This document shows, in pieces, positions 23,189 through 25,050 of a stretch of DNA of 41,530 nucleotides. The stretch covers positions 1-41,530 of the forward strand of contig PYER01000024.1 in the NCBI GenBank assembly GCA_003017855.1, read 5' to 3'. The notes beneath the pieces are model-generated. The model did not search any database. It was not told where the DNA came from and saw nothing but the letters and a program-made list of their open reading frames with translations. Both the position numbers and the translations under genes were made by a program. This stretch comes from a filamentous cyanobacterium CCT1 (GTDB taxonomy: Bacteria; Cyanobacteriota; Cyanobacteriia; Phormidesmidales; Phormidesmidaceae). Within the stretch, counting starts at the first letter, position 1. Every line of letters begins with the position of its first letter.

Positions 23189-23230
23189 GTAGTGACGAAT
23201 ACTGATCTGCCCACGATCAGTTGCTACAAA
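23189..23230 (+). promoter_or_regulatory. Putative NtcA-activated promoter
   Basis: GTAGTGACGAATAC at 23189-23202 is an exact match to the NtcA consensus GTA-N8-TAC. A -10-like hexamer TACAAA starts at 23225, 22 nt after the site, which is the usual spacing for NtcA-activated cyanobacterial promoters. The hexamer matches TATAAT at 4 of 6 positions. NtcA activates genes under nitrogen limitation. GTA-N8-TAC alone is expected by chance about once per 4 kb, so the support comes from the -10 spacing and from the guanidine riboswitch just downstream. Confidence 0.5.
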
Positions 23231-23334
23231 CTAGTAACTTGTTCGAATAAAAAAGTTCCTGAAACTTTTGGTGGCATAGAAGTAAGACTTCCCAAAGATC
23301 AGGACTTGATTGTTTCTAAAAAACTTGAGAGTAG

Positions 23335-23456
23335 GCACCTAGGGTTCCGACTTGGCTGACCAAGATTGTTGATTTTGGCTCGCTGAGTGTCTGGTCCGAG
23401 AGGTGCAGCCAGGCAGTAACTAACCTGGTTCACGGAGGGATAAAAGCCCGGGAGGA
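23335..23456 (+). promoter_or_regulatory. Guanidine-I (ykkC) riboswitch aptamer
   Basis: The conserved blocks of the ykkC subtype 1 aptamer appear in order: CTAGGGTTCCG (23339-23349), CTGGTCCGAGAGG (23391-23403), and CACGGAGGGATAAAAGCCCG (23431-23450) continuing GGAGG. Guanidine-I riboswitches sense free guanidinium and usually turn gene expression on. The final GCCCGGGAG is shared with the 5' arm of the terminator that follows, so ligand binding would prevent termination. It lies about 95 nt upstream of the symporter start. The related ppGpp and PRPP subtypes are less likely given the downstream transporter. Confidence 0.9.
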
Positions 23457-23501
23457 ACGGCGCAATTCTATAAGAATTGACGTTCTACTCCCGGGTTTTT
23501 T
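23447..23501 (+). terminator. Riboswitch-controlled intrinsic terminator
   Basis: CCCGGGAG (23447-23454) pairs with CTCCCGGG (23488-23495). The stem continues through AACG/CGTT and CAATTCT-ATA-AGAATTG, and TTTTTT follows at 23496-23501. The 5' arm is the 3' strand of the guanidine aptamer, so the aptamer and the terminator are mutually exclusive folds. Confidence 0.9.
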
Positions 23502-23550
23502 GTATCTACCGTTCGATAGCCATGACTCTAGGTCAAGGAGCCTCAACAAT

Positions 23551-25050
23551 ATGGAACAGAGTGTTTTTTCCTACGGCATCATTGCCTTTTTGCTCGGTAC
23601 GCTGGGCATTGGGGTGTGGGCCTCACAACAAATTAAAGGCGACAGCGTCAATTTTTTGGTGGCGGGGCGCGGGCTGGCTTTGCCCCTGGCGGCGGCTACG
23701 CTGATGGCGCAGTCGGTGGACTCCAACGCTACCCTGGGCAATACCGATCTCTCCTCAGCCTTCGGGTTTTGGGCGGGGGCGGCGCTGCCCATCGGACTTT
23801 CGGTTTGTCTGTTGCTAACCGGGCTATTTTTGGCTAAGCCCATGAACCGCATGGGGCTGATTACGATCCCCGACTTTTATCGGGTTAAGTATGGCCGCAC
23901 GGTGGAGGTGATTGCCGCCTGCATTATGTCGGTGAGTTTCTCGTTTTTGCTGGCGGGCAACCTGGTTGCTGGCGGCTACATGTTTGAGAATTTTTTGGGC
24001 ACCAGCTACGTGGGCGGCATTACGCTGCTGGCGGCGCTGGTATTTGCCTACACGGTGTCGGGCGGGCTGTTTGCGGTGGCCTATACCGATTTTATTCAGG
24101 TAATGATTGCCCTAGTGGGAGCCTGGGCACTGCTGCTGTTTGTGGTAGCCAATTTTGGCATCACCATCGACCCCGGCATGGGGCCAGGGGCAATTGACCA
24201 ACTCACCGCTGTTAGCTCTGGGGCGGCAATAAACTGGGCCAGCATCATTGCCCTGGGCTTTGGCAACATGGTGGCGATCGACTTTATGGCCCGCATTTTT
24301 GCTGCCGAAAGCCCCGAAACGGCGCAGCGAGCCTGCTTTATTGCCTCGGCGGGGACGCTGATTATCGGTATTCCGTTCTCGGTGATTGCTCTGGGGGCCA
24401 ACAGCATTCTCAGCCAGGCGGGAATTGTGCCCGATGGTCCGGTACTGTTTGCTCTGCTGGATAGTGTGATTCCGCCGCTGCTGGGGTTACTAGTACTGGC
24501 GGCGATTTTGTCGGCCTCGCTCTCCACTGCTGACGGTGCAATTTTGGGCACTTCGTCGGTGCTGGCCCACAACGTGCTGGGCATTCGCCATGCTACGGCT
24601 CATGGGGCAGGAGGCGATCGCCTGCTGCTGATCACCCGCTTGATGGCGATTGTAATTACGGTGCTGGGGGTAGTGCTGGGTCTGAAGGTGCCCCAGACCG
24701 GTGTACTGCTGCTACTGGCCTTTGATATGAGCTTTGCGGGTCTAGTAGTACCGCTGATTGGTGGCCTATTTTGGGCCAAGGCCACCCGGCAGGGGGCGCT
24801 TGCCTGTATTGCGGTGGGGTCGCTGTCGCGCCTGCTGATGTTTACGCTGATGCCGACTATGTTTGGGGTCGACAACACCCTGCTGTACTTTCCCAATGGC
24901 CTGTTTACCGCCGATTTTGACGGCTTTCCTACGCTGATTAGCCCGCTACTGGGCCTGGCTGCTTTTGTGGCGGTGTCGCTGCTGACTCACAAGCCCTCAA
25001 ATGCTGATCGACAGCGGGCTGAGGTGCTGGAAGAGGTGCGATCGCTGTAA
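23551..25050 (+). CDS. SSS-family sodium:solute symporter (candidate guanidine transporter)
   Basis: This 499-aa membrane protein has about 13 hydrophobic segments and sodium:solute symporter (PF00474) features: FLVAGRGLALPLAAATLMAQ early, IPDFYRVKYGRTVEVIAA, the YTVSGGLFAVAYTDFIQVMI block of helices 5-6, and LAAILSASLSTADGAILGTS in the Na+-site region (helix 8 of the LeuT-like core). Such proteins couple Na+ entry to uptake of solutes such as proline, urea or pantothenate. A guanidine-I riboswitch and terminator control the gene, so guanidine or a related compound is the likely substrate. The ATG at 23551 has AAGGAG 10 nt upstream; the longer frame starts at a TTG inside the terminator T-run and is rejected. 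Confidence 0.93.
   Translation: MEQSVFSYGIIAFLLGTLGIGVWASQQIKGDSVNFLVAGRGLALPLAAATLMAQSVDSNATLGNTDLSSAFGFWAGAALPIGLSVCLLLTGLFLAKPMNRMGLITIPDFYRVKYGRTVEVIAACIMSVSFSFLLAGNLVAGGYMFENFLGTSYVGGITLLAALVFAYTVSGGLFAVAYTDFIQVMIALVGAWALLLFVVANFGITIDPGMGPGAIDQLTAVSSGAAINWASIIALGFGNMVAIDFMARIFAAESPETAQRACFIASAGTLIIGIPFSVIALGANSILSQAGIVPDGPVLFALLDSVIPPLLGLLVLAAILSASLSTADGAILGTSSVLAHNVLGIRHATAHGAGGDRLLLITRLMAIVITVLGVVLGLKVPQTGVLLLLAFDMSFAGLVVPLIGGLFWAKATRQGALACIAVGSLSRLLMFTLMPTMFGVDNTLLYFPNGLFTADFDGFPTLISPLLGLAAFVAVSLLTHKPSNADRQRAEVLEEVRSL

Follow-up and report, generated by a model that had tools for sequence, protein, structure and literature searches.

The 41,530-nucleotide stretch of DNA analysed here (the window; positions 1–41,530 of contig PYER01000024.1, assembly GCA_003017855.1, from the filamentous cyanobacterium CCT1) carries a gene for a symporter of the sodium:solute symporter (SSS) family, which lies behind a leader containing a guanidine-I riboswitch aptamer, an intrinsic terminator and, further upstream, a candidate NtcA-type promoter. 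The features of this locus, numbered from the first nucleotide of the window, are as follows:

23189–23202, + strand: candidate NtcA-type site GTAGTGACGAATAC, an exact GTAN8TAC (from sequence and conservation)
23222–23230, + strand: extended −10 element, TGC-TACAAA, with TACAAA at 23225–23230 and its TA starting 22 nt after the NtcA-type site
23328–23456, + strand: guanidine-I riboswitch aptamer (RF00442, 80.8 bits, cut-off 63, E = 5.5e-13, model positions 1–107)
23442–23501, + strand: intrinsic terminator whose 5′ arm is the 3′ strand of the aptamer (hairpin of −31.9 kcal/mol, then TTTTTT)
23535–23540, + strand: Shine-Dalgarno-like AAGGAG (read from the sequence)
23551–25050, + strand: SSS-family symporter gene, 499 amino acids (PF00474, E = 1.4e-33)

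The first-pass annotation, made from the letters of the window alone, had named the controlled gene a sodium:solute symporter, and this is borne out by the PF00474 match, which at 116.8 bits passes the gathering cut-off of 22.8. The protein is 95% identical to symporters of the filamentous cyanobacterium CCP3 and of Nodosilinea sp. LEGE 06152, and a GGAG lies close to the start codon in 19 of 20 aligned symporter leaders. This layout recurs in many genomes, and a single-case arrangement or a misassembly was rejected on that ground. Our handles for loci and genomes, used below where they are needed, begin with L and G, respectively.

The riboswitch leader and its promoter

The RF00442 match is the sole at-cut-off match within the 41.5 kb window; its alignment contains a few non-standard pairs but keeps the conserved core letters, and the three ykkC subtype 1 cores recognized in the first-pass annotation are all found in the order given there. 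That annotation had also proposed a search against RF00442 and the ykkC subtype 2 models as a check. A permissive scan of positions 23300–23550 against the 4227 families of Rfam 15 (whose coverage of every ykkC subtype 2 model is not confirmed) gave no other guanidine or ykkC-type family, and its extra matches were miRNA families and one DUF805b, all below cut-off.

The element AAAAGCCCGGGAGG is the 3′ strand of the aptamer and also the 5′ arm of the terminator hairpin, just as had been read from the window. Folded as a whole, the 183-nt leader takes the terminator form at minimum energy (−74.0 kcal/mol), and the aptamer folded alone gives the aptamer helices. Because the last strand of the aptamer, GCCCGGGAG, doubles as the terminator 5′ arm and the terminator form is favoured in the full leader, guanidine binding should block termination, that is, the leader should act as an ON switch. 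The ON-switch architecture, also proposed in the earlier annotation, gains comparative support from the 20 of 20 symporter leaders examined that have a hairpin with a shared arm (−23 to −39 kcal/mol, with TTT or longer at its end), in a search whose script demanded the T run and whose set includes three leaders with decayed aptamers. These three decayed guanidine-I aptamers lie ahead of the symporter at L034:5768-5906 (55.3 bits), in L035 (same place in L180; 29.1 bits) and at L038:5786-5906 (35.1 bits); all three leaders have kept the terminator hairpin, and the decay may reflect drift or an altered ligand. The genomes of L035 and L038 (G387 and G390) have two at-cut-off guanidine-I aptamers each at other sites.

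NtcA-activated promoters typically carry GTAN8TAC about 22 nt ahead of the −10 element. The exact GTA-N8-TAC site and the −10-like hexamer 22 nt away that had been noted at the locus are both present; the position of the hexamer stands, and it is better called an extended −10 (TGnTA), because TACAAA lacks the final T; the 22-nt spacer before it ends in TGC. The GTAN8TAC pattern is palindromic (its own reverse complement) and occurs three times in the window, so one GTAN8TAC alone is weak evidence and we place the weight on conservation. Of 20 symporter loci, 16 have an exact GTAN8TAC at 20–280 nt upstream of the aptamer (shuffle mean 0.95), as do 32 of 45 loci whose first gene encodes the guanidinase GdmH (shuffle mean 1.32) and 4/5 DUF1989-led, 2/6 ABC-led and 1/1 glutamine synthetase-led loci. 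This count required 280 nt of upstream sequence, labelled each locus by the cluster of its first open reading frame (ORF) and was made on loci whose first ORF belonged to a listed cluster, so it holds 45 GdmH loci as against 53 labelled by tblastn. At 440–700 nt upstream, which served as a positional control, the site was found in only 1 of 19 symporter loci and 2 of 43 GdmH loci. A further control was provided by 23 aptamer loci of family f31, from the same phylum but another class than the window's group (we take f31 to be the non-photosynthetic Gastranaerophilales), and 2 of these have the site. An NtcA match was absent from all five f31 genomes tested; the window's genome encodes NtcA at 385.1 bits (TIGR03697, cut-off 244.95), as do four relatives' genomes, likewise above the curated cut-off.

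The spacing is also conserved: every one of the 16 symporter loci with the site has a TA exactly 22 nt past it, within TGnTA, although the eight inner bases of GTAN8TAC vary among many of these loci. Near-sites stand at the same aligned position in the four symporter loci that lack an exact one (L034, L042, L043 and L046). Among the 53 GdmH loci labelled by tblastn, 33 have the site within 300 nt, with TA at 22 nt in 24 of the 33 and TGnTA at 20–24 nt in 19; in the corresponding count of ABC-led loci the site is present in four of nine, with TA at 22 nt in three of those four. Conservation and the two controls rule out a chance site, and the NtcA-type promoter suggested by the first-pass annotation thus has comparative support (16/20 symporter loci versus 2/23 f31 aptamers), although NtcA binding itself is a prediction. 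Down-regulation of the Synechocystis guanidine operon by excess ammonium, reported in PMC10094980, fits NtcA-type control of guanidine genes. Between the NtcA-type site and the −10 element of the window there is also an inverted repeat, TGATC-TGCCCAC-GATCA (23203–23219), which is not intact in aligned neighbours.

Linkage of the symporter to guanidine genes

Relatives found with the window protein define 35 named loci, and 21 of these have an at-cut-off aptamer on the symporter's strand. Fifteen have it directly upstream of the symporter and six have the order aptamer–GdmH–symporter, four of these with HypA or HypA/HypB in between. The remaining loci comprise the three whose aptamers at this position have decayed (above) and 11 with none, six cyanobacterial and five haloarchaeal; two of the six aptamer-less cyanobacterial loci (L048 and L061) adjoin GdmH.

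The same association is seen outside Cyanobacteria. In a sample of 296 genomes from the actinomycetotal phylum of G405 (the Rubrobacteraceae genome holding L067), searched with a symporter threshold of E 1e-60, the symporter is present in six, in all six within guanidine gene clusters, and five of the six have an at-cut-off aptamer that serves the symporter directly or through GdmH followed by SSS. The order is aptamer–GdmH–symporter in G405, G481, G492 and G524, and G479 has guanidine-I before the symporter and guanidine-III before GdmH on the opposite strand. Two guanidine riboswitches of different classes stand back to back at L191:9286-9573, guanidine-I leading to the symporter and guanidine-III to the guanidinase. 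Pairs of DUF1989 genes mark the guanidine carboxylase route, and in G455 the order is symporter–DUF1989–DUF1989–carboxylase; no at-cut-off aptamer was found there in 17.5 kb, and that genome gave no GdmH match at 1e-30 and no urease (PF00449) match.

The guanidinase signature (T, H, W), taken from PMC11410670, was checked in the aligned GdmH proteins of Cyanobacteria and Actinomycetota: H and W were seen by eye in 7/7, and T was also read by eye, without hidden Markov model numbering. The haloarchaeal members of the symporter clade (L060, L062, L063, L064, L066 and L204–L214) have an arginase-family gene nearby in 15 of 16 loci (about 35% to GdmH). A guanidinase function for this neighbour is unsupported, as the signature tryptophan is missing in 8/8 aligned, and the substrate may therefore vary within the symporter clade. 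At L060 the gene after the symporter carries MazE/AbrB-like and PhoU domains.

Co-occurrence was examined in 386 genomes of the cyanobacterial phylum. Seven contain the symporter (E 1e-60) and 58 contain GdmH (E 1e-150), including all seven symporter genomes (P = 1.3e-6, kinship ignored); the window's genome encodes GdmH and urease. Downstream genes were read at all 70 listed non-f31 aptamer loci besides the window's and at seven f31 loci. Within 6.5 kb, the 53 loci in which the aptamer is followed by GdmH include 44 with ABC genes, three with the symporter at the same position, none with both and six with neither, and the symporter occurs in 1/44 genomes with ABC genes in the GdmH operon versus 5/9 without (P = 0.0002, again ignoring kinship). 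One of the six loci with neither is that of the window's genome, where the contig stops at 5.1 kb; the symporter and the ABC genes of this genome are preceded by two other aptamers. Another of the six is that of G159, a genome with a symporter at a different site. A strict either/or is rejected, and displacement of the ABC importer by the symporter is not strict, because the window's genome (G000) and G170 have both, possibly for different substrates; "alternative carrier" is therefore a better fit than "replacement".

Residues and relatives of the symporter

Nine NCBIfam families of named SSS equivalogs (PutP, PanF, ActP, etc.) matched the symporter, none at its own cut-off; the best scores were 108.2 of 184 for TIGR00813 and 105 of 515.5 for PutP, and a proline, pantothenate or acetate carrier was rejected on these curated cut-offs. 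The predicted model (pLDDT 83.6, pTM 0.84) and the profile search agree that the closest solved relative is the choline transporter CHT1 (profile E = 1.8e-34; model Z = 46.0 against 9bim, at 23% identity across 463 residues), and the urea symporter DUR3 gave a fold match with Z = 32.7 and a weak profile-search match (E = 1e-4).

Mapped through a distant sequence-to-profile alignment, the CHT1 Na2 residues correspond to A53, V56, A322, S325 and T326 of the symporter. The Na2 side-chain hydroxyls are kept (CHT1 S346/S347 are S325/T326) and are invariant in 58/58 aligned members, a set that includes duplicates (L053 and L070; L187 and L188, identical proteins). The Na3 residues D180 and D328 are retained. 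The choline cage of CHT1 is formed by W62, Y67, Y91, W141, W254 and W406 (PMC11589582), and at these positions the symporter has S, A, L, L, A and L, so that six of six are non-aromatic. A choline carrier, considered since CHT1 is the nearest solved relative, was rejected on the absence of this aromatic cage, and a choline function is unlikely on these residues.

Asp57, in the unwound loop of transmembrane helix 1 (TM1), is invariant in 56/56 clade members and is found in 0/12 SSS paralogues having that column (20 paralogue loci were offered and 13 yielded an ORF by our filter); the joint-loop G64 of CHT1 aligns to it. Other clade-specific residues are N59 (0/12 paralogues), N64 and D66 (0/9 each). 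We propose that D57 is the carboxylate that would meet guanidinium; it might serve Na+ instead. Asp244 was dropped as a candidate clade-specific substrate residue, as the residues listed as rare in paralogues do not include it. In a quick tree (SH-aLRT support only) the cyanobacterial symporters form one clade (100) and the haloarchaeal symporters another (100), with the actinomycetotal symporters on several branches that belong to neither; members linked to an aptamer are found in the cyanobacterial and in the actinomycetotal set. Some branches, those of the outgroup included, are long, and we do not rely on the deep branching order.

Proposed function, rival explanations and known systems

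The aptamer, the shared-arm terminator, the conserved promoter footprint, the genetic linkage and the Na2-site hydroxyl residues are seen directly in the sequences, and from them we infer the ligand response, NtcA binding, transport direction, Na+ coupling and substrate. We estimate at about three in four the probability that the protein is a Na+-coupled guanidinium importer placed behind an NtcA-and-guanidine gate for nitrogen scavenging. In such a system, NtcA would start transcription at the extended −10 promoter when nitrogen is short; without guanidine the transcript would stop at the terminator, and guanidine bound in the aptamer would keep GCCCGGGAG out of the terminator and so permit read-through, so that production of the symporter would require both nitrogen shortage and guanidine. 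The symporter, from a distinct SSS clade, would then most likely import guanidinium with Na+, and the imported guanidinium would feed the guanidinase (GdmH, whose gene lies at a different guanidine-I locus of the window's genome) and then urease. The guanidine-carrier function suggested in the first-pass annotation is strengthened, at the level of gene arrangement, by the linkage of symporter and guanidinase in several cyanobacteria and Actinomycetota and by the DUF1989/carboxylase cluster of G455. With somewhat less assurance, we also favour a broader reading: that the SSS clade is a new family of dedicated Na+-coupled guanidinium importers found across Cyanobacteria and Actinomycetota, its haloarchaeal relatives carrying other guanidino compounds; that its hallmark is the invariant Asp57 of the unwound TM1 loop (a glycine of the chloride-holding loop in CHT1) and that it often substitutes for the ABC guanidine importer; and that cyanobacterial guanidine genes are generally on an NtcA-AND-guanidine gate.

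Several observations weigh against a guanidinium importer under such a gate. An at-cut-off aptamer is lacking in 9 of the 30 non-haloarchaeal named loci (three decayed, six none), around the symporters of G159 and G455, and in all five named haloarchaeal loci, and the haloarchaeal relatives adjoin a ureohydrolase with E instead of the guanidinase W (8/8 aligned). The window's genome and G170 also carry a guanidine-I-linked ABC transporter. The genomes compared are related, so the P values given above are overstated. The CHT1 Na3 residue S350 is G329 in the symporter, and in DUF1989/carboxylase-led loci GTAN8TAC is present in six of nine but is followed by TA at 22 nt in only one of the six.

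The symporter might instead import urea, as the SSS-fold proteins DUR3 and UreA do, and be co-induced with the guanidinase since urea is its product. The shared fold and weak profile match of DUR3 (above) agree with this, as does the presence of urease in 19 of 20 symporter genomes tested (of which G215 and G398 look like one genome), and 5_ureB_sRNA matches lie near the symporter in five actinomycetotal loci and one haloarchaeal locus, overlapping a urease gene at L058. We nonetheless think urea import quite unlikely: 15 named loci have the guanidine aptamer immediately ahead of the symporter, the cation carrier CHT1 is nearer than DUR3 by both profile and fold, and urea import would have no obvious use in G455, a genome in which neither GdmH nor urease was found and whose symporter sits with two DUF1989 genes and a carboxylase. 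UreA binds guanidine weakly (Ki >3 mM; PMC4077062), which indicates that urea carriers can exclude guanidine and is silent on the window symporter.

The substrate could also be a substituted guanidine from which guanidine is set free, such as methylguanidine or a guanidino acid, with the ABC transporter taking guanidine itself. This would suit the separate guanidine-I operon of the window's genome, with its type III glutamine synthetase, ABC genes and Rieske oxygenase, and the haloarchaeal ureohydrolase neighbour without the guanidinase tryptophan; but in five actinomycetotal loci (L058, L067 and L187–L189) and several cyanobacterial loci the symporter comes straight after the guanidinase or is separated from it by HypA/HypB alone, and we consider such a substrate unlikely. 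That the symporter exports guanidine as a detoxification pump would parallel the SMR exporters that guanidine-I commonly controls (PMC12186494). Indeed, the f31 aptamer precedes an SMR exporter in all seven loci read, three of them from genomes of the 23-locus control. NtcA-type sites, however, accompany the symporter and guanidinase aptamers and only 2/23 f31 aptamers, and SSS carriers normally run inward on Na+, and export thus appears very improbable.

Guanidinium import by the symporter would have parallels in known systems. The GdmH-GhaA/B(HypA/B)-ABC operon of Synechocystis PCC 6803 (sll1077-1082) similarly places uptake and guanidinase under guanidine-I control (PMC10094980). Its carrier is an ATP-driven ABC importer, whereas here an SSS symporter stands alone behind its own aptamer, and in other genomes the SSS symporter follows GdmH-HypA-HypB, the usual place of the ABC genes. 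SSS proteins are counted within the APC superfamily in the broad TCDB sense. In comammox bacteria the order guanidine-I–APC-superfamily permease–guanidinase also includes an ATP-independent carrier proposed for guanidine import (PMC11410670); going by its description, the window carrier differs in being a PF00474 protein with Na2-site residues. Compared with CHT1 (SLC5A7), the high-affinity choline transporter with which it shares the Na2 hydroxyls, the window symporter has non-aromatic residues in place of the aromatic cage and D57 in place of the joint-loop G64. DUR3/UreA have the SSS fold and downstream urea chemistry in common with the system described here and are more distant by sequence than CHT1. 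ABC carriers have been described as guanidine importers, and APC-type permeases have been proposed as such (PMC12186494); one ykkC element is reported upstream of a potE-like transporter. The literature searched, which did not include three key guanidine papers, contained no report of a guanidine riboswitch paired with an SSS symporter, and an earlier description of this pairing or of the NtcA link is possible.

If guanidinium is indeed the substrate, a Na+-driven SSS carrier would add an ATP-free route to those of guanidine import and offer a good model for the selection of a planar cation by an SSS protein, and it would help the annotation of proteins now named just "sodium:solute symporter". 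The conserved NtcA site before the riboswitch suggests how cells might avoid making guanidine genes when ammonium is plentiful despite the presence of guanidine, by a two-input gate in which a protein switch and an RNA switch would act in series.

In the separate guanidine-I operon of the window's genome (L145:6401-12165, contig C493), the aptamer leads into a gene for type III glutamine synthetase (TIGR03105, 599 bits), which is accompanied by ABC genes and by one for a Rieske oxygenase; the glutamine synthetase-like enzyme and the oxygenase may take part in the breakdown of a substituted amine or guanidine. Type III glutamine synthetase is also found inside the guanidinase operons of six other genomes (L106, L113, L119, L123, L130 and L142), and at 15 of 77 aptamer loci, the window's own not counted, Rieske-oxygenase-like genes lie within 6.5 kb downstream of the aptamer.

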